Below, one piece after another: positions 7,349-55,671 of a DNA stretch of 64,000 nt. The position numbers and the translations under genes were made by a program. The DNA is from Fusobacterium ulcerans. Its GTDB lineage: Bacteria; Fusobacteriota; Fusobacteriia; Fusobacteriales; Fusobacteriaceae. Each line of letters opens with the position of its first letter. The stretch's first letter is position 1. The stretch lies in contig NZ_CP028105.1 in the NCBI RefSeq assembly GCF_003019675.1, positions 636,282 to 700,281 on the forward strand, given 5' to 3'. A model generated the notes under the pieces. It saw nothing but the letters and a program-made list of their open reading frames with translations, made no database searches and was not told the origin of the DNA.

Positions 7349-8413
7349 CTAGAATGTAGATTTAAATCCTACAATTCCAAATGGTTGCCATCTCCAGTTT
7401 GATGCTCCACTTTCAGAAGTTTTCATCCAGTTTCTATATTCAGCACCAACAGTTGCATATACTTTGAAAGTTGGTGTTGCAGAATAAGTTAAAGTAACTT
7501 GTGGATCAGTTTTTAAACTATAACCTAAATGATCATCATTTTCTTTTACTTTATCTGACCAAGTATAAGAGTCGTATCCTGATTCAGCAAAGAAATCTAC
7601 TGAAATTTTTTCATTTGAGTATAAATTTGCTCCATAAGTTAAATAAACATTTACTGCTGCATCAGTATTACTATCAGATTTTTTATTACCATTATCCACT
7701 CCATGAACTTTATCTCCATATTTGTGGAAACCTAATGTATCTAATTCAACTTGGAACCCAAATCCATATGGTAACTCATTTACAAAGTTTGCATATAATC
7801 CTACTTCATTATCATAATTGTCCCCTGAACCTTCTTCACCTTCTCTATTCCATGTATATTCGTAGTAAGGAGCAACTACCATTTCTGTAGTTTTTATAAA
7901 GTCATTGTTAAACATATAATCAACAAAATCAAATCTTGCTTCATATCTCAATGCATAACTACTGTCTTTTATATATTGAACTCTTGAAGTAAAGTTAACT
8001 TTAGAATCTCCAAGATTTCCATGATTGAAGTTATATCTCAATCTTAATTGATCATCTTTATTAGAAGTAAGATCAGAATTTAAAGAATCATAAGTTCTTA
8101 ATCTGTACTCAAATGATTGTTTTTCAGTCATGTTAATTTTTCCTTGTAATTGAAGTCTTCCATAATTGTTATTTTTATTCCAATTATCTCCTCCAACTTT
8201 ATCCTGACCTTCAGTTTCTCCATATACTCTGTATTGAAGATCTACAAAACCGTTAGGTCTGAATCCTTCTTCTTTGTCTCTGTAAACGATAACTTCTTTT
8301 TCGATTACTTGAACTGGAGCTTCTTCAACTACAACTGGAGCTGGAACAACTTCTTTTGCAGATGCAGATGCTACAACAAGTAAAGAACCTAGTAAAAGTG
8401 CTAATTTTCTCAT
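7349..8413 (-). CDS. FomA-like outer-membrane porin, copy 1
   Basis: 354 residues from the ATG preceded by AAAAGGGGAG; the open frame extends 25 codons further, but that part is the structured leader. The signal peptide is residues 1-19 (cleavage after ASA). A Pro/Val/Glu-rich linker leads to RPNG, then a beta-barrel with alternating aromatic strands that ends in WRWQPFGIVGFKSTF; the terminal Phe is the outer-membrane assembly signal. This matches the major Fusobacterium porin FomA, which gives general diffusion and serves as an adhesin. The first 75 or so residues are the same as in copies 2 and 3 (one synonymous change seen), whereas the barrel loops differ. Terminator present; own promoter. 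Confidence 0.88.
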   Translation of the reverse strand: MRKLALLLGSLLVVASASAKEVVPAPVVVEEAPVQVIEKEVIVYRDKEEGFRPNGFVDLQYRVYGETEGQDKVGGDNWNKNNNYGRLQLQGKINMTEKQSFEYRLRTYDSLNSDLTSNKDDQLRLRYNFNHGNLGDSKVNFTSRVQYIKDSSYALRYEARFDFVDYMFNNDFIKTTEMVVAPYYEYTWNREGEEGSGDNYDNEVGLYANFVNELPYGFGFQVELDTLGFHKYGDKVHGVDNGNKKSDSNTDAAVNVYLTYGANLYSNEKISVDFFAESGYDSYTWSDKVKENDDHLGYSLKTDPQVTLTYSATPTFKVYATVGAEYRNWMKTSESGASNWRWQPFGIVGFKSTF

Positions 8414-8490
8414 AATTATCTCCCCTTTTAAAAAGATTTTTTTATACCTTCCCCCTTGCTTCCAAGGAGTTAGATTTCCCATTACCAATG
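8250..8490. repeat. Porin 5' identity block, copy 1 (shorter)
   Basis: About 241 bases covering the leader and signal-peptide region match the blocks at 10613-10940 and 12795-13122 with a single visible difference. Identity stops abruptly at 8490, where the promoter sequence changes. Confidence 0.85.
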
Positions 8491-8518
8491 TTATACATTA
8501 TTTTTGACGTTTTGTAAA
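8414..8518 (-). promoter_or_regulatory. Promoter and structured leader of porin 1
   Basis: TTTACA (8513-8518) and TATAAC (8490-8495), 17 bases apart, form a near-consensus promoter used only by this copy. The roughly 70-base leader contains a hairpin at 8452-8469 and a short one at 8478-8490. It has two G-rich sites: GGGGGAAG (8448-8455) and the ribosome site GGGGAGA (8419-8425). Confidence 0.65.
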
Positions 8519-8591
8519 TACTTTTTTTAAAAAAACTTCACAAAACTTTCATATTCCAATCACAAATCTCCTAAATATAATACTTTAAATC

Positions 8592-8644
8592 CCCCAATAA
8601 AAGAGGATAGAAAAAGGATAGACATACCCCCTTTTAGTAGACAA
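8592..8644 (-). promoter_or_regulatory. Conserved upstream box of the porin genes, copy 1
   Basis: 53 bases identical to 10888-10940 and 13070-13122. On the coding strand it holds two TCTATCC direct repeats whose starts are 11 bases apart, which suggests a regulator binding on one face of the helix. Here it lies 179 bases before the start codon, against 112 in the other two copies. Confidence 0.6.
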
Positions 8645-9047
8645 CTTTTTTTTGTGATTATTTGGTGAAGAAGTAAAAATAAAAAGAGGCTGAACTTTTT
8701 AGAACAGCCTCAACCTCGGGGAGAGATTTTTTATATAAAATTTTATTATTAGCGTTTCCCTCTTATTGGGAGGGCTCATAAGATTTCTGGGAAAATCTTT
8801 TATTTAATGGGGGTATTAACAATTTTACTAGATTCTTTATTATTTTTTATATCTGATATTTAGACTTCTTTTTTTTCTAAAAAGTTTAAATATTTTTTTA
8901 TTTTTTGTTTTCTCCTCTCTTTTTTATCAGAGAGGAGAACATTTCTTCTGGGGGAGAAAAAATCTTTATTATTTGTTGTTTTATTTCTATGATATTTAGA
9001 CTCTCAGTTGTTAGAAAAAGTTTAAAAGTTTTTTAATTATTTTATTT
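8645..9047. other. Gene-free interval with hairpins and a degenerate direct repeat
   Basis: No ORF is supported here. There is a terminator-like hairpin near 8685-8713 (GAGGCTG with CAGCCTC) and a perfect 10-bp hairpin at 8910-8939. Two imperfect direct repeats lie at about 8831-8902 and 8961-9038, sharing GATATTTAGACT and AAAAAGTTTAAA. It may be the decayed remains of a gene or contain a small RNA; neither can be shown. Confidence 0.45.
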
Positions 9048-9464
9048 TTATTTATTAATTTCATATTTTAATATTTCTCTTGCTAATTCTAAAGCATCTT
9101 CTAAGTGATTTTCAATAATTTTTTGTAATATATCTAAACTTATAGCTTGATAGTCATGAACTGCAATATTTCTAAATCCTCCCATTCCTTGAAGATTTTT
9201 ACTGAGTTCTTTAGAAATAATATTATTTTTTTCTAATATTTGAAATGTTTCTTTGCTGCTTTGAAAAAATCCATATTTATTTATTCTTATTACATGAGTC
9301 GCAAGATCTATCTCTGCTTCACATAATCTCTGAATATTTAAAATTATTGAATCCTGTTTTGTACAATTTTTCAAATTTAATGAATCATTTTCATATTCCT
9401 CATTTACTCTTTTTATACATTTTTTAATTGTTTCAATTTTATTAATTATAATATCATCTTTCAT
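9048..9464 (-). CDS. Solitary HepT-like HEPN ribonuclease toxin
   Basis: 138 residues from the ATG followed by Lys-Asp-Asp; the longer open frame has a hydrophobic, unlikely N-terminus without a ribosome site. The helical HEPN fold carries R98-x4-H103-D-Y105 (FRNIAVHDY), the Rx4-6H nuclease motif of the HepT (DUF86) family. HepT toxins cleave or bind RNA and are normally neutralised by a neighbouring MntA nucleotidyltransferase. No MntA gene lies on either side: there is a 120-base gap to porin 2 upstream and a gene-free stretch downstream. It may therefore be orphaned, or have its antitoxin elsewhere. Confidence 0.75.
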   Translation of the reverse strand: MKDDIIINKIETIKKCIKRVNEEYENDSLNLKNCTKQDSIILNIQRLCEAEIDLATHVIRINKYGFFQSSKETFQILEKNNIISKELSKNLQGMGGFRNIAVHDYQAISLDILQKIIENHLEDALELAREILKYEINK

Positions 9465-9527
9465 AATTCCACACCCCCAAAGAATAATTATTTTCAACAT
9501 AAATATCATAATTATTATATCACAGCT

Positions 9528-9555
9528 AAAAAAAGTGCCCACAAATGTGAGCACT
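9528..9555 (-). terminator. Intrinsic terminator of porin gene 2
   Basis: AGTGCCCACA (9534-9543) pairs with TGTGAGCACT (9546-9555), with T7 following on the minus strand. It is the same hairpin as at 11820-11841. Confidence 0.88.
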
Positions 9556-9585
9556 AAAAATTTTTATTTAATTTTTTAAACCAAA

Positions 9586-10776
9586 CTAGAATGTAGTTCT
9601 GAATCCTGCAAATACAGTTGGCTGCCATCTCCAGTTAGTCGCTGAACTTTCATTTTTTATCGCCCAGTTTCTATACTCAGCACCAGCTGCTACATATACT
9701 TTTACAGATGGTGTTGCTTGATAGTTAAGTTGAACTGTTGGTAATGCATATAGTGAATAAGATTCATTATCTGTTCCTATTCCCTTAGCTAAGACTTTTT
9801 TTCCTGTTAAAGAACTATATGAGTCATTAGCAGCATGATATTCTGCATCATATTTTCCATTACAATAAGGTGTTCCATATTTTTTATTAGATGACCATTC
9901 ATAAGTATCATATCCACCTTCAAAGTTAAAATCAACTGATACTTTTCCATCTGCACTTGTATAAAGGTTTTGAGTATTGTAAAGGAATGCCTCTACTGAT
10001 ACAGTAAAGTTTTTATCATCCATTTTGTTAGTTCCATTAAAAAACTGATCTTTACCATAGAAGTGTTGATCTGCATACACATTAAGTTCAAATGAGAATC
10101 CCCATGGGAACTCGTGCATTGTATATAAATCTACTCCCAATCTATTATCATAATCATCGTCATTTCCCTCTCCCCATACATATTTGTATTTTGGAGCTAC
10201 CATAAAGTTAGTAGTTTTCACAAAATCATTATTGAACATATATTCAGCAAAATTAAATCTTGCTTGGTATTCTACTTCTTGTGCTCCAGCTACATCCTCT
10301 CTATCTCTATAATGAAGTCTTGAAGTTAAATTAACTTTAGAATCTCCAAGATTTCCATGGTTATAGAAATATCTTAATCTTGTGTCTGTTCCATCTTCTC
10401 CATTAGCATGAGTTGAAGTACTATTATATTCTCTTATTCTGTATTCTAAAGCTTGTTTTTCAGTTAAATTAATTTTTCCTTGTAATTGGATTCTTGAATA
10501 GTTATTTGCTCCATTCCAGTTTCCATTTCCAGCAGTTGTTCCATTGGCTGATTTAAATGCATCTTCCTGACCTTCAGTTTCACCATACCATCTGTATTGT
10601 AAATCTACATATCCGTTAGGTCTGAATCCTTCTTCTTTGTCTCTGTAAACGATAACTTCTTTTTCGATTACTTGAACTGGAGCTTCTTCAACAACAACTG
10701 GAGCTGGAACAACTTCTTTTGCAGATGCAGATGCTACAACAAGTAAAGAACCTAGTAAAAGTGCTAATTTTCTCAT
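9586..10776 (-). CDS. FomA-like outer-membrane porin, copy 2
   Basis: 396 residues, the longest of the three porins. The signal peptide and linker are identical to those of copies 1 and 3 up to RPNG; the barrel then diverges, with longer loops (for example around residues 280-320). It ends in NWRWQPTVFAGFRTTF with the terminal Phe for BAM recognition. Start chosen at the ATG after GGGGAGATAATT; the 32 in-frame codons upstream are leader sequence. General-diffusion porin or adhesin role is inferred from FomA. A HEPN gene lies downstream and a zeta toxin pair upstream, all on the same strand but each with separate signals. Confidence 0.88.
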   Translation of the reverse strand: MRKLALLLGSLLVVASASAKEVVPAPVVVEEAPVQVIEKEVIVYRDKEEGFRPNGYVDLQYRWYGETEGQEDAFKSANGTTAGNGNWNGANNYSRIQLQGKINLTEKQALEYRIREYNSTSTHANGEDGTDTRLRYFYNHGNLGDSKVNLTSRLHYRDREDVAGAQEVEYQARFNFAEYMFNNDFVKTTNFMVAPKYKYVWGEGNDDDYDNRLGVDLYTMHEFPWGFSFELNVYADQHFYGKDQFFNGTNKMDDKNFTVSVEAFLYNTQNLYTSADGKVSVDFNFEGGYDTYEWSSNKKYGTPYCNGKYDAEYHAANDSYSSLTGKKVLAKGIGTDNESYSLYALPTVQLNYQATPSVKVYVAAGAEYRNWAIKNESSATNWRWQPTVFAGFRTTF

Positions 10777-10884
10777 AATTATCTCCCCTTTTAAAAAGAT
10801 TTTTTTATACCTTCCCCCTTGCTTCCAAGGAGTTAGATTTCCCATTACCAATGGGTAGGGGAGGGTTGACAAATCTTTATATCA
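10777..10884 (-). promoter_or_regulatory. Promoter and structured leader of porin 2
   Basis: An extended -10 (TGATATAAA, 10876-10884) without a clear -35 box lies about 95 bases before the ATG. The leader carries a CCCATT/AATGGG hairpin (10841-10855), a second hairpin with GAAG loop (10815-10832) and G-rich sites at 10811-10818 and 10782-10788 (ribosome site). Confidence 0.6.
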
Positions 10885-10887
10885 GAA

Positions 10888-10940
10888 CCCCAATAAAAGA
10901 GGATAGAAAAAGGATAGACATACCCCCTTTTAGTAGACAA
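10888..10940 (-). promoter_or_regulatory. Conserved upstream box of the porin genes, copy 2
   Basis: Same 53-base box as at 8592 and 13070, ending just before the extended -10. Two TCTATCC repeats 11 bases apart would sit near positions -20 to -50, where an activator could replace the missing -35 box. Confidence 0.6.
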
Positions 10941-10989
10941 AAAAATATTTCAAAAAATTAAAAAAGTTCACTGTAAAAAGCAAACTTTT

Positions 10990-11556
10990 TCAAATATATT
11001 TAATTATATTTTCCAGCCATTCAGGAATATTTTCATTCCATATGATATCACCATTTTCTACAAGAAGACACTCTCTTATATATTCGCTATTATCATATAC
11101 AGTTATTTTATCACATATCTTAAAAACTTTTTTTAGATTTTCAAATGATTCAACATATCTTTTTTCTATGTCTTTATCTGGTATTCCATGACCACCATTT
11201 CTTACTCTTATTCTTACTCTTTCTTTTGCAATTTCTACATTTTTTACTCCAATATAGTGAAGATATATTTTAAAACCTTTTTCTTTAGCTTTTAAAATTC
11301 CTTTTAAAACAGTATTCCCTGTTAAAGTAGTCTCTTGATTAAAAGAAATTCCTTTTTCTATAAATTCATTTCTCCATTGAATTCCAATTCTAGCAGCTTT
11401 TATCTGATCAGATGAGTTTTTCCATTCTCCAATCTCTTTTACTATTTCATCAGTATTGATTCTTTTTCCTAAATCATTATTCTTTATTATTTCAATATTA
11501 TATAAAGTTGATTTTCCAGCTCCATTTACTCCTGCAAAAATAGTATATACCTTCAT
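10990..11556 (-). CDS. Zeta-toxin-like P-loop kinase
   Basis: 188 residues. A P-loop (GVNGAGKST, residues 9-17) opens a single kinase-like domain. NTDEI near 40, QETTL near 75 and the NGGHGIP...RY segment near 120-130 are shared with zeta/PezT-type toxins. These phosphorylate UDP-N-acetylglucosamine or nucleotide-like substrates. It follows a 57-aa gene after one base, a typical antitoxin-toxin layout. The antitoxin is not a recognisable epsilon, so the pair is called from layout plus the P-loop protein. Confidence 0.75.
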   Translation of the reverse strand: MKVYTIFAGVNGAGKSTLYNIEIIKNNDLGKRINTDEIVKEIGEWKNSSDQIKAARIGIQWRNEFIEKGISFNQETTLTGNTVLKGILKAKEKGFKIYLHYIGVKNVEIAKERVRIRVRNGGHGIPDKDIEKRYVESFENLKKVFKICDKITVYDNSEYIRECLLVENGDIIWNENIPEWLENIIKYI

Positions 11557-11557
11557 A

Positions 11558-11731
11558 TTAATATATTCCTTCTTCTATAATCTTCTTCTGCTCTTCTTGA
11601 AGTAAAAAGTTTCTTGCATTAAAGTAAAATTCCTTTTCTTCTTTTGTTTTAGCTGATTTTATCAATTCAAAGTACTCATCTATTTTTAAAGTTTTAAAAT
11701 ATTCATATATATTTACATTTTTTATTTCCAT
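11558..11731 (-). CDS. Small protein, candidate antitoxin of the zeta-like toxin
   Basis: 57 residues from the ATG with GGAGG 8 bases upstream; two earlier in-frame ATGs lack such a site. The protein is acidic and helical, rich in Lys/Glu/Tyr, with no motif I know. Its stop is separated by one base from the start of the zeta-like gene, so translation is probably coupled. Assigned as antitoxin only from its position and size. Confidence 0.6.
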   Translation of the reverse strand: MEIKNVNIYEYFKTLKIDEYFELIKSAKTKEEKEFYFNARNFLLQEEQKKIIEEGIY

Positions 11732-11813
11732 AATTATGACCTCCATTATTATAGTCTTATTATATATGTTACCCTTTTTTTCAAATAAAATCAATTAATA
11801 TTTATCTATAAGC

Positions 11814-11841
11814 AAAAAAAGTGCCCACAAATGTGAGCACT
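11814..11841 (-). terminator. Intrinsic terminator of porin gene 3
   Basis: AGTGCCCACA (11820-11829) pairs with TGTGAGCACT (11832-11841), T run on the minus strand. Matches the terminator of porin 2 exactly in the stem. Confidence 0.88.
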
Positions 11842-11872
11842 AAAAATTTATTATTTAATTTTTTAAATTTGA

Positions 11873-12958
11873 CTAGAATGAAGTTCTGAATCCAGCACCA
11901 ACATATGGTTGCCATCTCCAGTTAGAAGCTGTGTTCTCAGTAGTGTTAGTCCAGTTTCTATATTCTCCTCCAACATATCCATAAACTTTTACAGATGGAG
12001 TTGCTTGGTAAGAAACAGTTACAGTAGTATCAATATACGCTTCATAGTTTGCATCATCGTATCTTGTAGCTTCGTCTCTAGCATCTAAAGCATATCCATA
12101 TATATCTTCACTATGCCATTCATAAGTATCGTATCCTCCAGCTGATTTCCAATCTACAGACACTTTATCATTAGCATATAGATTCATTCCATGATATAAA
12201 TAAGCTCCAACTTGTATTCTGAAATCATCATCAACAGTATCGTTTTTCTTAGTTCCAACTCTTTGATCTTGTCCATACATATTGTATTCAAGTCCATCAA
12301 TTTCTAATTGAGTACTGAATCCCCATGGTAATTGATGCTCAATATTTACATATAATCCAAATCTATTAACATATGCATCATTATTAGATGACCATTCATA
12401 AGTATATCTAGGTGCTACTGTAAAGTCAGTAGTTTTTATATAATCATTGCTGAACATATATTCAACAAAATTAAATGCCGCAAAATATTGGATTTTTTGA
12501 GTTCCAGTATATCCATCTTCATACCATACTCTTGAATTAAAATTAACTTTAGAATCTCCAAGATATCCATGATCATATGCATATCTTAATCTTGTTTGAG
12601 TTCCCATATCATTTTTTTCAGTTTCTGATGCATTCCAATCATGTCTAGTTCTTACTCTGAAATATAATGATTGATTTTCTGTCATATTAAGATTTCCAAC
12701 TAATTGAGTTTGTGAATAATCTTGTCTAGTATGCCAATCAGCATAATCATGATTTTCAGTTTTTCCCATAAATTTTAATGAAAGATCAACATACCCGTTA
12801 GGTCTGAATCCTTCTTCTTTGTCTCTGTAAACGATAACTTCTTTTTCGATTACTTGAACTGGAGCTTCTTCAACAACAACTGGAGCTGGAACAACTTCTT
12901 TTGCAGATGCAGATGCTACAACAAGTAAAGAACCTAGTAAAAGTGCTAATTTTCTCAT
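11873..12958 (-). CDS. FomA-like outer-membrane porin, copy 3
   Basis: 361 residues. Signal peptide, linker and RPNGYVDL are shared with copy 2. The barrel then diverges and ends in NWRWQPYVGAGFRTSF with a terminal Phe. The strand pattern (alternating aromatic residues, acidic loops) is that of FomA. Start and ribosome site are as in copies 1 and 2. Its 5' block is identical to that of copy 2, so the two promoters should respond alike. The adjacent trkA gene is divergent, with its own promoter. Confidence 0.88.
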   Translation of the reverse strand: MRKLALLLGSLLVVASASAKEVVPAPVVVEEAPVQVIEKEVIVYRDKEEGFRPNGYVDLSLKFMGKTENHDYADWHTRQDYSQTQLVGNLNMTENQSLYFRVRTRHDWNASETEKNDMGTQTRLRYAYDHGYLGDSKVNFNSRVWYEDGYTGTQKIQYFAAFNFVEYMFSNDYIKTTDFTVAPRYTYEWSSNNDAYVNRFGLYVNIEHQLPWGFSTQLEIDGLEYNMYGQDQRVGTKKNDTVDDDFRIQVGAYLYHGMNLYANDKVSVDWKSAGGYDTYEWHSEDIYGYALDARDEATRYDDANYEAYIDTTVTVSYQATPSVKVYGYVGGEYRNWTNTTENTASNWRWQPYVGAGFRTSF

Positions 12959-13066
12959 AATTATCTCCCCTTTTAAAAAGATTTTTTTATACCTTCCCCC
13001 TTGCTTCCAAGGAGTTAGATTTCCCATTACCAATGGGTAGGGGAGGGTTGACAAATCTTTATATCA
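12959..13066 (-). promoter_or_regulatory. Promoter and structured leader of porin 3
   Basis: Same arrangement as porin 2: extended -10 (13058-13066), hairpins at 13023-13037 and 12997-13014, G-rich sites at 12993-13000 and 12964-12970. Confidence 0.6.
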
Positions 13067-16211: not shown

Positions 16212-17729
16212 TTATTTAATTTTTTTTATCTTTGTTAAAACATGATGTCCATTTGGTCTGAATATAAAGTTAGTTATATTTTTTCTCATTCCTACTAACT
16301 CGTTTTTTCTAAGAATAGGTATCAATGGAAGATCTTCTTCCAATATAGCTTGAGCTTCTCTATAGATTTCAGCTCTCTTATCCATATCAGTTTCAAGTCT
16401 GCCTTGTTCTGCTAATTTATCATATTCAGGATTGCTGTAAAAACTTCTGTTTCCAGCTGCTCCTCTTGCATCTGTGTGATAAAGTGGATATAAGACAATA
16501 TCAGAGTCATTAGTTCCTGGGAACCATCCACCTAAAATCAATTCATGTTGTCCAATAGCACTCTTTTCAAGATAAGTTCCCCATTCAACTGGCTCTATTA
16601 TCAAATCTATTCCTAACTCTTTTAAGTTAGCCTGTATAATCTGAGCAGTCTGAATGTTGGCTGGAGTAGAATCTGTCATTATTTTCATCTCTTTAGGAAT
16701 ATCTCCAACTTTGTTTAAAAGTTCTTTTGCTTTATCTAAATTCAAGCTGATATCCCCTGTTGGTTTTCCTCCTATCATGTTAGGACTTACCATAGAAGTA
16801 GCCGGCTCTCCTGCATTGTCATAAACAGCACTCAATATTCCTTCTCTGTCTAAAACATTATTTACAGCCTGTCTAAATTCTTTTTTATTAAATGGAGCTT
16901 TTTCAGTATTAAATCCTACATATTCAGTTCTCATAGAAGGTCTGTTTACTAGAGTAAGATCTTTATTTTCCTCTACAAATTTTATGTCAGATGGACTAAG
17001 ATTATATGCTATATCCACTTCTCCAGTTTCAAGAGCTATAAGTCTGTTGTTCCCTTCAGGTATAACTTTAAATACAAGCTCATCTATTTCAGGTTTTCCC
17101 ATAAAGCTATCCTCAAATGGCTCAAATCTTAATACATCTCCACTATTCCAATAAGTAAGTCTGAAAGGTCCTGTTCCATTTGGATTTACAGCTATTTCAC
17201 TTTCTCCTCTTTTCAATGTATCCTCTTTATTTATTATTCCACAAAGAGAAAGAGTCATATTATACAGCAATGGCGAAAATTCACTAGATAAAAGTACTCT
17301 CACATGAGTATCATCCACTATTTCAACACCACTTATTTTTTCTAAAAGTATACGAGTTCCAGCTTTTTCTCTCATTCTTTCCACAGAAAAAGCTACATCT
17401 TCCACTGTAAGTTCAGCACCATTATGAAATTTTATTCCTTTTTTTATAGTAAAAAGAATAGATTTTGGATTTTCAAATTCCCATTTTTCTGCTATTTCAG
17501 GAATAAGATTTCCTTCATCATCTACAGCTAAAAGAGTATTGAATACCTGTCTTGCTACAGTCATAGATGCTACCTGATTAGCAAGAGGCGGATCTAAAGT
17601 TTTAGGTTTTGCTGCCTGAGCTACAGTTACAGTTACCTTTTCATTTTTAGTCTCCTTCTTTTCCTCAGTTTTTCCTCCACATCCCAATAAAAATAGTGAT
17701 AATGTTAATGCTGCTATCTTTTTTATCAT
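16212..17729 (-). CDS. ABC transporter substrate-binding lipoprotein (family 5, peptide-type)
   Basis: 505 residues. The signal peptide ends in a lipobox (LFLLGC, Cys about residue 17), so the mature protein is lipid-anchored. The SBP_bac_5 fold follows (KFHNG, GTGPF, RVIPEGNNR, EWGTYLEK), the DppA/OppA/GsiB class binding di- or oligopeptides or glutathione-like ligands. It is related to the two proteins at 52-56 kb, but those are soluble. No permease or ATPase genes are adjacent, so it probably works with a transporter encoded elsewhere. Ribosome site TTGGAGG. Confidence 0.88.
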   Translation of the reverse strand: MIKKIAALTLSLFLLGCGGKTEEKKETKNEKVTVTVAQAAKPKTLDPPLANQVASMTVARQVFNTLLAVDDEGNLIPEIAEKWEFENPKSILFTIKKGIKFHNGAELTVEDVAFSVERMREKAGTRILLEKISGVEIVDDTHVRVLLSSEFSPLLYNMTLSLCGIINKEDTLKRGESEIAVNPNGTGPFRLTYWNSGDVLRFEPFEDSFMGKPEIDELVFKVIPEGNNRLIALETGEVDIAYNLSPSDIKFVEENKDLTLVNRPSMRTEYVGFNTEKAPFNKKEFRQAVNNVLDREGILSAVYDNAGEPATSMVSPNMIGGKPTGDISLNLDKAKELLNKVGDIPKEMKIMTDSTPANIQTAQIIQANLKELGIDLIIEPVEWGTYLEKSAIGQHELILGGWFPGTNDSDIVLYPLYHTDARGAAGNRSFYSNPEYDKLAEQGRLETDMDKRAEIYREAQAILEEDLPLIPILRKNELVGMRKNITNFIFRPNGHHVLTKIKKIK

Positions 17730-17799
17730 ATCTTTCCTCCAAGATTTTTTTTATATATCTCTTTATCTTCTACCATTTTTATTCATTTCTGTCCAGATT

Positions 17800-52076: not shown

Positions 52077-52110
52077 TGTAACATTTCTGACACAATTACT
52101 TGGTATATTA
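52077..52110 (+). promoter_or_regulatory. ECF-like promoter of sRNA unit R1
   Basis: TGTAAC at 52077-52082 and conserved CTTGGTATA about 17 bases on. Sequence is conserved in R2 and R3 with the same 46-base distance from TGTAAC to the C-rich start; TGTAAC resembles -35 elements of ECF sigma factors. No sigma70 pair fits. Confidence 0.45.
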
Positions 52111-52111
52111 A

Positions 52112-52200
52112 ATATATAAAATCTTTCCCCAAGATGTTTTATATATAGATGGAAATAGCAGAACAAACTTCCCCAGTTTGCTCTGCTATTTTCATTTTCT
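52112..52200 (+). ncRNA. Candidate small RNA R1
   Basis: About 85-90 nt. C-rich 5' segment CTTTCCCCAAGATG (52123-52136), an AU-rich linker, then a 16-bp hairpin (52153-52191, one mismatch) with CCCC in its loop and a T-rich tail. It shares its whole layout with R2 and R3. No protein-coding gene converges on this copy, which supports an independent RNA gene rather than a gene terminator only. Confidence 0.6.
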
Positions 52201-52337
52201 CTATTTTTTCTATTTCTCAGATAAATTATATTTATTTTTTATTTCTTTTGATTTATAAAAAAACCTGTCTGTATTTTTAAATAGTTCTTCATAGATTTTT
52301 TAATATTTTTCACTAAAGGAAAAAATATTTTTTTCTT

Positions 52338-52371
52338 TGTAACATTCCTGACACAATTACTTGATATATTA
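52338..52371 (+). promoter_or_regulatory. ECF-like promoter of sRNA unit R2
   Basis: TGTAAC at 52338-52343 followed by the conserved CACAATTACTTG stretch, as in R1. Confidence 0.45.
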
Positions 52372-52372
52372 A

Positions 52373-52460
52373 ACATATAAAATCTTTCCCCAAGATGTTT
52401 TATATATAGATGAAAATAGCAGAGCAAACTTCCCCGTTTGTTCTGCTATTTTTATTTTAC
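52373..52460 (+). ncRNA. Candidate small RNA R2
   Basis: CTTTCCCC at 52384-52391 opens the conserved 5' segment. The hairpin at 52413-52452 has a 17-bp stem with one G-T pair and the loop TTCCCC, then a T run. Its arm difference from R1 leaves the stem intact (A-C in R1, G-T in R2). The hairpin also lies just past the stop of the convergent SBP gene and can end that transcript. Confidence 0.62.
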
Positions 52461-52466
52461 AATTAA

Positions 52467-53960
52467 TTATTTGCTTACATATATTAAACGATGCTCACTT
52501 TCAGCATCCAGTATAAATCCTTTTATTGTTTTTTGTAATCCAACATTATCATATGGATATACAAGAACAAGCATAGGAACTTCTTCCTGAACTATATCTT
52601 GTGCTTCTTTATAATAGTTGATTCTATCTTCTGGAACTGTACTTTCTCTTCCCATATCCAGAAGCTGATCCATTCTTTGGTTAGTGAAATATGTTCTATT
52701 TCCTGAGCTTCCATGATTTTTAGAATGGAATAAAGCATATAGAGCTGAGTCAGCATCTGGACTTGAAGTCCATCCCAGCAAGAACATATCATGTTCCCCT
52801 CTTGCTAATCTGTCAAGATATGAACCCCACTCTAATATTTCTATTTGAAGATCTATTCCTACTTGTTTTAATTGATCTTGAAGTATAACAGCTATATCTC
52901 TTCTTACTGTATTGTCATTTAACCATATTTTTGTTTTAAATCCATTCGGATATCCAGCCTGTGCCAAAAGTTCCTTAGCCTTAGCCACATTAAAAGAATA
53001 TTTTTTTGCATCTTTGCTATATCCAAATACGCTAGGAGATACTGGTGAGTTAGCCTCATTAGCTGCTCCTAAATATACTGCATCTATAATACTTTGTCTG
53101 TCTACAGCATATGCTATTGCCTGTCTTACAAGTTTATTATCAAAAGGAGCTTTTTTAGTATTAAATCCAAGATAATTAATATTCATTGCTGGTTCTTGAA
53201 TAAGGTTTAATCCTGAATGTTCTTTCACCATTCTTAAATCCACCGGATCTATATCATAAGCTATATCTGCTTCTTTTGTCTCCAGAGATATTGTTCTATT
53301 TACCCCTTCTGGGATAACTCTAAATACTAATGTATCTATCGCTGGTTTTCCCTTGAAATAATTAGGGTTTGCTTTTAAAGTAACTCTGTCTCCTGATCTC
53401 CAAGAATCAAATACAAATGGCCCTGTTCCTACTGGATGTTGTCCATAATCATTTCCGGCTGCTTTTACTGCTTTTTCATTTAAAATAGCAGCACCTTTAT
53501 GAGCTAAGTAATTTGTTAATGGCCCAAAAGGTTTTTTAGTTGTTATTTTAACTGTATTATCATCTACAGCTTCCACTTTATCTACATCATAAAAGAAACT
53601 CATCAGACTTGGAGATTCTTTAGCTCTTGTCAAACTAAATACAACGTCTGATGCCTTTAATGGATCTCCATTATGAAATTTAACATCTTTTCTCAAATGC
53701 AGTACTAGAGTCAATGGATCAATTTGCTCCCAACTTTCTGCCAATGCTGGAACCAGTTTCATACTTGGATCTCTTTCAATCAAAGTATCATAAATATTAA
53801 GATATACTCTGTGAGATGGAACATCATTTGATGCTGTTGGATCCATACTTTTAGCATCTGCATTTTGTGCCACTACAACAGTTGTCTCAGCATATATAGT
53901 GTTGAAACTAAATAAAGCAATCATCATAAACATTAAGATTGTAAATATTTTTTTCTTCAT
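52467..53960 (-). CDS. Periplasmic peptide-type substrate-binding protein, copy A
   Basis: 497 residues from the ATG after AGGAGGAG. Sec signal peptide with cleavage after IYA and no lipobox Cys, so soluble periplasmic. SBP_bac_5 fold (KFHNGDP, GTGPF, RVIPEGVNR, EWGSYLDRL), DppA/OppA/GsiB class. It is closely similar to copy B at 54184 throughout, showing tandem duplication. No permease or ATPase genes are adjacent. A promoter and a downstream sRNA-like unit flank it. Confidence 0.9.
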   Translation of the reverse strand: MKKKIFTILMFMMIALFSFNTIYAETTVVVAQNADAKSMDPTASNDVPSHRVYLNIYDTLIERDPSMKLVPALAESWEQIDPLTLVLHLRKDVKFHNGDPLKASDVVFSLTRAKESPSLMSFFYDVDKVEAVDDNTVKITTKKPFGPLTNYLAHKGAAILNEKAVKAAGNDYGQHPVGTGPFVFDSWRSGDRVTLKANPNYFKGKPAIDTLVFRVIPEGVNRTISLETKEADIAYDIDPVDLRMVKEHSGLNLIQEPAMNINYLGFNTKKAPFDNKLVRQAIAYAVDRQSIIDAVYLGAANEANSPVSPSVFGYSKDAKKYSFNVAKAKELLAQAGYPNGFKTKIWLNDNTVRRDIAVILQDQLKQVGIDLQIEILEWGSYLDRLARGEHDMFLLGWTSSPDADSALYALFHSKNHGSSGNRTYFTNQRMDQLLDMGRESTVPEDRINYYKEAQDIVQEEVPMLVLVYPYDNVGLQKTIKGFILDAESEHRLIYVSK

Positions 53961-54000
53961 AAAACACTCTCCTCCTGATATTTTAATCTCTAACATTATA

Positions 54001-54028
54001 AGTATACCCCATTAATTCCTAAAATCAA
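54001..54028 (-). promoter_or_regulatory. Predicted promoter of substrate-binding protein copy A
   Basis: TTGATT (54023-54028) and TATACT (54001-54006) with a 16-base spacer, about 40 bases before the start. Confidence 0.55.
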
Positions 54029-54057
54029 GATTTTTTTTGAAATTTTATTTTTTTCTT

Positions 54058-54091
54058 TGTAACATTTTTGTCACAATTACTTGGTATATTA
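54058..54091 (+). promoter_or_regulatory. ECF-like promoter of sRNA unit R3
   Basis: TGTAAC at 54058-54063, same spacing and surrounding sequence as R1 and R2. Confidence 0.45.
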
Positions 54092-54092
54092 A

Positions 54093-54180
54093 ACATATAA
54101 AATCTTTCCCCAAGATGTTTTAATATATAATATATAAAAATAGCAGGTAGCTTATACAGCCATCCTGCTATTTTTATATT
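54093..54180 (+). ncRNA. Candidate small RNA R3
   Basis: CTTTCCCCAAGATG at 54104-54117, identical to R1 and R2. The hairpin (54136-54147 with 54164-54175, 12-bp perfect stem) has a different, longer loop without CCCC. So the 5' segment is kept while the terminator differs. The hairpin is also placed to end the convergent SBP copy B transcript. Confidence 0.58.
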
Positions 54181-54183
54181 CTC

Positions 54184-55671
54184 CTATTTACTTACTGGAT
54201 AAAGATTATGTTGATTTTCAGGATCAAGTTCAAATCCTTTTATAGTTTTCTGCATTCCAACATTGTTATCTGGATAAACTAATGGAATTAATGGAACCTC
54301 ATCCATAATTATATCTTGTGCTTCTTTATAACTTTCTATTCTGTCTGCTTCTACAGTAGTCTCTCTTCCTTTATCAAGAAGCTCGTCTACTCTTGCATTT
54401 GTATAATAAGTTCTGTTTCCAGCACTTCCATGATTTTTAGAATGAAAAACTGCGTATAGAGCTGAGTCAGCATCTGGACTTGGTGTCCATCCTAATAAAA
54501 ACATATCATGTTCTTTTCTTATTAATCTGTCTAAGTAAGAACCCCATTCCAAAATTTCTATTGTAGCATCTATTCCTATTTGTTTTAATTGGTCTTGTAA
54601 AATAACTGCGGTATCTCTTCTGATTCCATTATCATTAGTCCATATTTTTGCTTTAAATCCATTTGGATATCCAGCCTGTGCCAAAAGTTCTTTAGCTTTA
54701 GCTACATTATAATCATATCCTTTAGTATCTTTATTGTATCCGAATACTTCAGGTGATACTGGAGAATTTGCTTTAGAAGCTGCTCCTAAATATACTGCTG
54801 CAATCATGCTGTCCATATCTATTGCATAAGCTATTGCCTGTCTTACCTCTTTTTTGTTAAAAGGAGCTTTTTCAGTATTAAATCCTAAATAGTTCATTGT
54901 TAAAGCTGATTTTTGAAGAAGAGTAAGATTTGAATGGTGTTTTACCATATCATGATCAATAGGATCTATATCATAAGCAATATCTGCTTCTTTTGTTTCC
55001 AGAGCTATTGTTCTATTTACTCCTTCAGGTATAACTCTGAATACTAATGTATCTATTGCAGGCTTTCCTTTGTAATAATCTGGATTTGCTTTTAAAACTA
55101 TTCTGTCTGCTGATACCCAAGAATCAAACATGAATGGTCCTGTTCCAATTGGATGCTGTCCATAGTTGTCTCCAGCAGCTTTTACTGCTTTTTCACTCAT
55201 TATTCCTGCACCTTTATGAGCAAGATAATTTACAAGCGGTCCAAAAGGTTTTTTTGTTGTTATTCTTACTGTTTCATCATCAATAGCTTCTATTTTATCT
55301 ATATCAGAATAAAAACTCATCATGCTTGGAGCATCTTTAGCTTTTTGAAGACTGAATACAACATCTCCAACAGTCATTGGATCTCCATTGTGGAATTTTA
55401 TATTCTTTCTTATTTTTACATCTAAAGTTAAAGGATCTACCTGTGTCCAGCTCTCTGCCAACCCTGGAACAAGTTTTCCATGATCTCTGTCTACCAGATT
55501 ATCATATATTTGAAGAGTTACTCTGTGAGAAGGTACATCATTAGATGCTGTAGGATCTAATGTTTTTGCATCTGCATTTTGAGCAACTGTCACAGTTGTT
55601 TCAGCATAAATATTTACTGATAATAAAGCCATTACTAATAAAAGAAAAATCATTGATAACTTCTTTTTCAT
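54184..55671 (-). CDS. Periplasmic peptide-type substrate-binding protein, copy B
   Basis: 495 residues. Signal peptide MKKKLSMIFLLLVMALL...IYA, soluble periplasmic form. Same SBP_bac_5 motifs as copy A (QNADAKTLDPTASNDVPSHR near 30-50; GTGPFMFDSW near 170). The two proteins differ mainly by conservative changes, so ligands are probably related, perhaps with altered specificity. Ribosome site GGGGG is 9-10 bases from ATG. First gene of the tandem pair. Confidence 0.9.
   Translation of the reverse strand: MKKKLSMIFLLLVMALLSVNIYAETTVTVAQNADAKTLDPTASNDVPSHRVTLQIYDNLVDRDHGKLVPGLAESWTQVDPLTLDVKIRKNIKFHNGDPMTVGDVVFSLQKAKDAPSMMSFYSDIDKIEAIDDETVRITTKKPFGPLVNYLAHKGAGIMSEKAVKAAGDNYGQHPIGTGPFMFDSWVSADRIVLKANPDYYKGKPAIDTLVFRVIPEGVNRTIALETKEADIAYDIDPIDHDMVKHHSNLTLLQKSALTMNYLGFNTEKAPFNKKEVRQAIAYAIDMDSMIAAVYLGAASKANSPVSPEVFGYNKDTKGYDYNVAKAKELLAQAGYPNGFKAKIWTNDNGIRRDTAVILQDQLKQIGIDATIEILEWGSYLDRLIRKEHDMFLLGWTPSPDADSALYAVFHSKNHGSAGNRTYYTNARVDELLDKGRETTVEADRIESYKEAQDIIMDEVPLIPLVYPDNNVGMQKTIKGFELDPENQHNLYPVSK

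Follow-up and report, generated by a model that had tools for sequence, protein, structure and literature searches.

A multicopy family of predicted short regulatory RNAs with a C-rich 5' end in Fusobacterium

Why are two peptide-binding protein genes of Fusobacterium ulcerans accompanied by three copies of one short unit, and what could such a unit do? The window analysed here is a stretch of 64,000 nucleotides of contig NZ_CP028105.1, and the units R1, R2 and R3 lie between its positions 52,077 and 54,180. An earlier note on this DNA had regarded them as sibling small RNAs (sRNAs) of one stress sigma factor. Judged by sequence analysis, R1-R3 belong to a family of predicted short regulatory RNAs that had not been described before; the kind is known, the family new. 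They are probably three of eleven trans-acting siblings that would be regulated by an OmpR-family protein and whose seed would block translation of RadD-type and other surface proteins.

The three units and their family

R1, R2 and R3 share the 14-nt core CTTTCCCCAAGATG, starting at 52123, 52384 and 54104, and the hexamer TGTAAC at 52077, 52338 and 54058, respectively. The distance of 46 bases between the two elements, which had been described as strictly conserved, was found identical in all three units. With up to two mismatches, the 14-mer is expected 0.4 times per window by chance. In a direct-repeat comparison across 117 nt, R1 was 92% identical to R2 and 73% to R3. Terminator hairpins, each with a T-rich tail, fold at 52147-52197 (R1), 52408-52457 (R2) and 54132-54179 (R3), and whole-unit folding gave z-scores against shuffles of -7.8, -10.0 and -6.3. 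Together with the conservation of the family, these folds support the predicted sRNAs on the plus strand at 52113-52200, 52374-52460 and 54094-54182. The R1 sRNA consists of a 5' seed and hairpin (52113-52145) with the core CUUUCCCCAAGAUG (52123-52136), followed by the terminator; R2 has its hairpin at 52375-52405 and its core at 52384-52397, and the R3 core is at 54104-54117. The former estimate of 52112 for the start of R1 is close to the start predicted here (∼52113-52117).

UCCCC is present in the 5' segment of all copies; R1 and R2 have a second site, UUCCCC, in the loop of the terminator. No UCCC site was found in the linker of the window copies or in the R3 terminator. The C-rich 5' segment is thus conserved as proposed, but the variation is not confined to the hairpin loops, as the whole terminator stem differs among copies. 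The terminators of R1 and R2 are alike, while R3 and the remaining loci mostly have their own. No reading frame is conserved: the ATG of the core gives M-F-Y-I-stop in some copies, in others the frame closes after two codons, and small-genome species have ATA instead. A C-loop hairpin usually follows the RNA start in single-sequence folds. RNAalifold yielded no consensus for the 5' hairpin of all copies, which therefore relies on the single-sequence folds without covariation support.

The exact 14-mer occurs at 11 sites in the 3.54-Mb genome (reversed control: none). The upstream organisation is the same at all 11, and the terminators are many and different. Three of the copies lie at the locus of the solute-binding proteins (SBPs), where R2 converges on SBP1 (52467-53960, minus strand; Pfam PF00496, E 2.7e-109) and R3 on SBP2 (54184-55671, minus strand; PF00496), both family-5 extracellular solute-binding proteins; R1 has no convergent gene, as already noted. 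The other eight are at unrelated loci, and the neighbours of the copies, named by eye from their translations, include an SMC-like ATPase, an HD phosphohydrolase, a HAD-type phosphatase and a nucleoside phosphorylase with a cytidine deaminase, among others. Since most copies are distant from peptide-binding genes and their terminators are unrelated, recent duplication of the SBP genes, considered earlier as the sole source of the conservation, cannot account for them. Likewise, the placement around duplicated peptide-binding genes holds for three of the eleven copies and not for the family.

Among the genomes compared, 11 of 12 from the genus and none of 49 from other genera contained the exact 14-mer. 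A covariance-model search of Fusobacterium genomes, as the earlier note had suggested, detected 3-14 copies in each of the 12; Fusobacterium mortiferum and a Fusobacterium metagenome-assembled genome are the named matches. Outside the genus, the model gave only weak matches, in two other genera of the Fusobacteriaceae: three genomes of one had a single weak copy each, and one genome of the other had a diverged triplet (L119, E 0.044). This triplet (genome G076, 1338-1719) comprises three tandem copies with a TGACACA-type box, the core UAAUAUUUUCCCC and a C-rich terminator loop; it may be the counterpart of the sRNA family in a related genus. Overall, 98 distinct copies were seen, 91 with a T-run after the core. 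Neither at the gathering threshold nor at permissive thresholds did the window copies match Rfam 15, and a plasmid search returned no copies. Family copies, anatomy and folds all support the idea of sibling sRNAs that have a stress-type promoter in common, start with a C-rich segment and end in intrinsic terminators.

Predicted promoter and regulator box

TGTAAC turned out to be half of a direct repeat, TGT[AC]ACA-N4-TG[TA]CACA, with a period of 11 bp. It is not invariant in the family, in which TTCACA-N5-TTCACA, CGTCAC.. and CGCCAC.. were also found. The box, defined from 81 variants and scored with a position weight matrix (PWM), is present in 85 of the 98 unique copies; in 79 of these 85, TANNNT follows exactly 8 nt past the 19-bp box. 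The -10 hexamers include TATATT, TATTAT and TACTAT, usually with G or TG just before. In the window, the boxes on the plus strand are TGTAACATTTCTGACACAA for R1 (52077-52095, PWM score 23.7), TGTAACATTCCTGACACAA for R2 (52338-52356, 20.6) and TGTAACATTTTTGTCACAA for R3 (54058-54076, 24.8). At the same fixed spacing, TATATT is found at 52104-52109 (preceded by TGG), 52365-52370 and 54085-54090. A simple scan recognised no sigma70 promoter with both hexamers at R1-R3. Such an arrangement would be expected of a sigma70 promoter that depends on an activator; with transcription starting about 6-8 nt past the -10 element, the RNA 5' end would be at about AUAUAAAAUCUUUCCCC. An 11-bp direct-repeat layout is typical of sites for OmpR/PhoB-family response regulators, unlike the -35 elements of extracytoplasmic function (ECF) sigma factors.

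A genome search for the box pattern that tolerated one mismatch gave 11 matches, eight of which were the sRNAs (reversed control: three). The best match apart from the sRNAs (score 22.8) is located upstream of a gene for an exported helical protein of 125 amino acids. Orthologues are present in all 12 genomes, each with its best-scoring box at the same upstream place and TATAAT ∼8 nt behind it. The box score is 22.8 in six closely related species and ranges from 9.7 to 17.8 in the other six, which are distant. An LT..Q-type motif is present in the protein; its profile had ZraP as best PDB match (3lay, E 0.0021), and Pfam Metal_resist was hit below threshold (E 0.087). From these similarities, the name Spy/CpxP/ZraP-like suits it best. 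Proteins of this class are typically controlled by CpxR, BaeR and ZraR in E. coli. With regard to the previously proposed check for the -35/-10 pattern upstream of other envelope-stress genes, this gene has a box and a -10 element in 12 of 12 genomes, but not of the ECF type. As the box is common to the sRNAs and the Spy/CpxP/ZraP-like gene, the simplest assumption is that one response regulator of envelope stress controls both; the sRNAs would then most likely be siblings governed by a two-component system of the envelope-stress kind.

Control by PhoB or by CarR was considered and rejected. The box resembles a Pho box, but the best PWM score upstream of pstS was only 1.6 (L216). CarR boxes are 17 bp long and almost exclusively A and T (PMC12186487, Table 1), while the family box is of the TGTCACA type.

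Some copies depart from this promoter architecture. A box-less copy is kept in three species (L080 9906-9965, L093 9916-9986 and L087 644-727); it has TATAAT directly at the core and CUUCCCCAG in its terminator loop and, where resolved (L080, L093), adjoins a glucose-6-phosphate isomerase-like gene. At L015 1483-1519, core and terminator were found with no recognisable promoter, and this copy is possibly a decayed sibling.

Predicted targets and phage-borne copies

A search for GGGGAAAG near ATG returned several genes whose entire start region is complementary to the sRNA 5' end. Prominent among them were proteins with the NF033175 domain 'fuso_auto_Nterm', which are related to the adhesin RadD; there are 10 of these autotransporters in the own genome and 8-19 in close relatives. 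Species after species, their ribosome-binding site (RBS) reads GGGGGAA(A)GAT(T/A)TTATG or a near variant, an RBS of the type GGGGGAAAGATTTATG recurs in four species, and the RadD-type leader has the sequence GGGGGAAGATTTTATG. The sRNA 5' end could form 10-15 contiguous Watson-Crick pairs with the RBS of about half of the RadD-type autotransporters.

Candidate targets were ranked in a 400-kb genome sample plus the window (341 own genes), with R2 as query for the autotransporter duplexes. The longest Watson-Crick run was 15 in autotransporters vs at most 10-11 in the 331 other genes. The median duplex energy of the autotransporters was about -22 kcal/mol, compared to -12.4 ± 4.0 kcal/mol for all sampled genes. 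The gap of -9.9 between autotransporters and background lay beyond those of all 60 control sRNAs, in which CCCC was kept and the flanks were shuffled (mean -2.8, standard deviation 2.0, minimum -6.9). When G-U pairs were included, none of 1000 shuffled sRNAs matched the median run of the autotransporters.

Other exported proteins were weaker or less consistent candidates. The strongest duplex of all 341 genes (-27.7 kcal/mol) was predicted for the site AUCUUGGAGGAAAGAU at the RBS (17730-17745, minus strand) of an OppA-like lipoprotein gene (16212-17729), which was rejected as a conserved target because orthologues have weaker duplexes at this site (-21.4 to -14.5). SBP1 ranked ninth (-21.3 kcal/mol); SBP2, at rank 174 with no good predicted pairing, was discarded. 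FomA-like porins were not retained as conserved targets either, with moderate energies and most sites merely in the top 3-20%. As a class, exported proteins paired slightly better than others (p 0.026).

Three further observations concern porin genes and a small basic protein. Three FomA-like porin genes in the window (7349-13054, minus strand) have identical leaders and signal peptides, diverged barrels and small genes between them, a possible cluster of antigenic or phase diversity. Elsewhere in the own genome (L124 and L127, ∼2.30 and 2.20 Mb), FomA-like porin genes are directly followed by those of an OmpR-type regulator and a histidine kinase. A conserved basic protein of ∼70 amino acids with no Pfam or NCBIfam match (L223, L244, L252) has the RBS GGGGAAAGATTTATG, which in three species complements the sRNA seed without a mismatch.

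The following mechanism would join these elements. Under envelope stress, the OmpR-family response regulator of a two-component system would bind the TGTCACA-type direct repeat and recruit sigma70 RNA polymerase to a -10 element that has no proper -35, so that a dozen promoters fire. Each RNA of ∼85 nt would start with the 5' end given above, usually followed by the small C-loop hairpin and a copy-specific terminator. Its seed would pair with the Shine-Dalgarno and start-codon region GGGGGAA(A)GAU(U/A)UUAUG of surface-protein mRNAs, above all those of giant RadD-type autotransporters and probably those of some peptide-binding lipoproteins. Pooled, the sRNAs would block ribosome binding, and the stressed envelope would receive fewer bulky exported proteins.

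Copies were also detected in phages. The related IMG/VR contigs L073 and L074 have three core copies with intact seed, L073 also a fourth, degenerate one, and L075 has one copy. Species G001 contains the corresponding prophage (L089), again with these four copies, and another phage-type copy (L091) that lies behind the remnant of an integrase-lysis-holin region; a single copy occurs in G002 (L092). A holin gene (PF05105, E about 1e-35) directly precedes the sRNA, or the cluster of sRNAs, in L073, L089, L091 and L075. The phage copies have no box but sigma70 promoters instead, such as TTGACA-N17-TATAAT (L075) and TTGACA-N17-TATTAT (L089). The seed in L075, and in all but one of the four copies in L089, is predicted to form 12-14 Watson-Crick pairs with autotransporter RBSs of G001 (about -19 to -23.5 kcal/mol). 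In the copy L089:10851, both sides of the outer stem are changed compared to the host yet still pair (UAACAAA/UUUGUUA vs AUAUAAA/UUUAUAU), which is the sole hint of structural conservation.

Tentatively, temperate Fusobacterium phages may have captured the host envelope-stress sRNA and exchanged the regulator box for sigma70 promoters while keeping the adhesin-RBS-pairing seed AAAUCUUUCCCC; uncoupled from the regulator, such copies would hold the lysogen's giant surface proteins constantly low. A 1067-residue autotransporter gene (L089 5249-8452) lies ∼1.9 kb past the last prophage sRNA, and its own RBS, GAGGAGG, mismatches the seed. Among INPHARED phages there was a single weak match, to a microvirus (47 nt, 83%) and without evident significance, and a degenerate viral scan gave only unrelated matches.

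Competing explanations and known systems

Could one ECF sigma factor of the sigmaE type drive the siblings after all, as the earlier note had assumed? TGTAAC looks like an ECF -35 element, and FoxI and FoxJ of F. nucleatum, to which the sRNAs would then be related, are sigmaE-dependent C-stretch sRNAs that repress envelope proteins (PMC11005410). However, TGTAAC varies while the 11-bp repeat pattern stays, and there is no ECF-like conservation 16-17 nt downstream but the -10 element at its constant distance. The same box marks the Spy/CpxP-like gene, and the prophage copies use sigma70 promoters. Control by an ECF sigma factor is hence improbable. Still less likely is a cis-acting leader or attenuator of the riboswitch kind. 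Such an element would also combine a conserved segment with a terminator, and a few copies are indeed upstream of a gene on the same strand (L009, L010), but R2 and R3 converge on their neighbours, L001 and L002 point away from theirs, and no cis-regulatory Rfam family matched. Least credible is a passive or mobile repeat (similar to miniature inverted-repeat transposable elements or repetitive extragenic palindromes) that spreads with promoter-like sequence and has no RNA function. Many intergenic copies in one genus, with traces in two others, would suit it. Yet the invariance is limited to box, -10 element and 5' RNA segment, terminators and flanks vary from copy to copy, terminal inverted repeats were not seen, all parts of a transcript are present and the seed matches adhesin RBSs.

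A number of results weigh against the favoured combination of an OmpR-type regulator, sibling sRNAs and autotransporter targets. None of the 10 OmpR-type regulator genes bears the box within its 3-kb locus, so that autoregulation points to none of them as the cognate regulator. Variants with AAAAUA do not fold the 5' hairpin, which is thus not universal. Between two and four of the 10 own autotransporter genes pair poorly with the sRNA, runs counted with G-U pairs are equally long (up to 18) in a few of the other sampled genes, and the autotransporter RBSs are paralogous and therefore not independent observations. Five small-genome species retain the sRNA without any NF033175 autotransporter, so their sRNAs must have other targets. 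The last point also favours a variant with the same kind of sRNA and regulator, whose main targets would be numerous mRNAs in which the Shine-Dalgarno sequence is rich in G (those of solute-binding proteins, FomA-like porins and transporters). The OppA-like lipoprotein duplex and the slight advantage of exported proteins speak for this variant as well. On the other hand, the lipoprotein site fades in orthologues, most porin sites rank only moderately and the long continuous Watson-Crick complementarity is specific to autotransporters. This variant is therefore rather unlikely, though it deserves more weight than the three alternatives above.

If sibling sRNAs under a two-component system repress RadD-type proteins, a noncoding arm built from a dozen redundant sRNA genes would stand beside sigmaE in the envelope control of the Fusobacteriota, a deep-branching phylum. 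To our knowledge, F. nucleatum has neither Hfq nor ProQ. Envelope stress would be tied directly to the adhesins that shape fusobacterial surfaces and coaggregation. The phage-captured copies would be the most novel side of the family: they would exemplify phages borrowing a host stress sRNA, and they would alter the lysogen's surface and possibly exclude other phages.

Parts of this picture are known from other bacteria. The streptococcal csRNAs have a promoter repeat that differs from the Fusobacterium box. They are five highly similar, CiaRH-dependent sRNAs under one response regulator (PMC4507080), as predicted here for Fusobacterium, but they target the competence gene comC, and no sequence relation to the new family was found. 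FoxI and FoxJ are fusobacterial sRNAs with a C-stretch seed and belong to the sigmaE-driven envelope-stress response, in which they repress outer-membrane proteins (PMC11005410); a link to envelope stress is predicted for the new family, too. They are described as single-copy, whereas the new family is multicopy, ∼85 nt long and has a repeat-box promoter; FoxJ is ∼156 nt long and lies upstream of ylmH. From FoxI, the family was set apart by description (promoter type and copy number) and not by sequence. The prophage sRNA svsR of E. coli NC101 is reported to lower expression of the outer-membrane protein LamB and to limit other phages (PMC12803456). A surface effect is likewise predicted for the Fusobacterium phage copies, which keep the core of the host family under an exchanged promoter; the abstract on svsR does not present it as copied from a stress sRNA of the host.

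The closest parallel is LhrC1-5 of Listeria monocytogenes, multicopy sRNAs that depend on LisRK and are induced by envelope stress. Their C-rich UCCC sites are exposed in loops and bind the start regions of mRNAs including those of the adhesin LapB (lapB) and the oligopeptide-binding protein OppA (oppA) (PMC4132741, PMC5880928). Both families consist of sibling copies with C-rich stretches. In LhrC, redundant UCCC sites are spread over loop, linker and terminator loop; the window copies have them in the 5' segment and, for R1 and R2, in the terminator loop. Two-component control as well as adhesin and OppA-type targets are predicted for Fusobacterium. LhrC has five copies, compared to up to 14 in the Fusobacterium family, which occurs in a Gram-negative host, has phage-borne members and carries its seed at the 5' terminus, with predicted pairing that extends over the start codon. 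LhrC was absent even among weak Rfam matches of the window copies, so that there is no detectable homology. If our reading is correct, the regulatory logic of LhrC, a two-component system acting through a C-rich multicopy sRNA on adhesin and OppA targets, would recur in Fusobacterium in RNAs of no detectable kinship.
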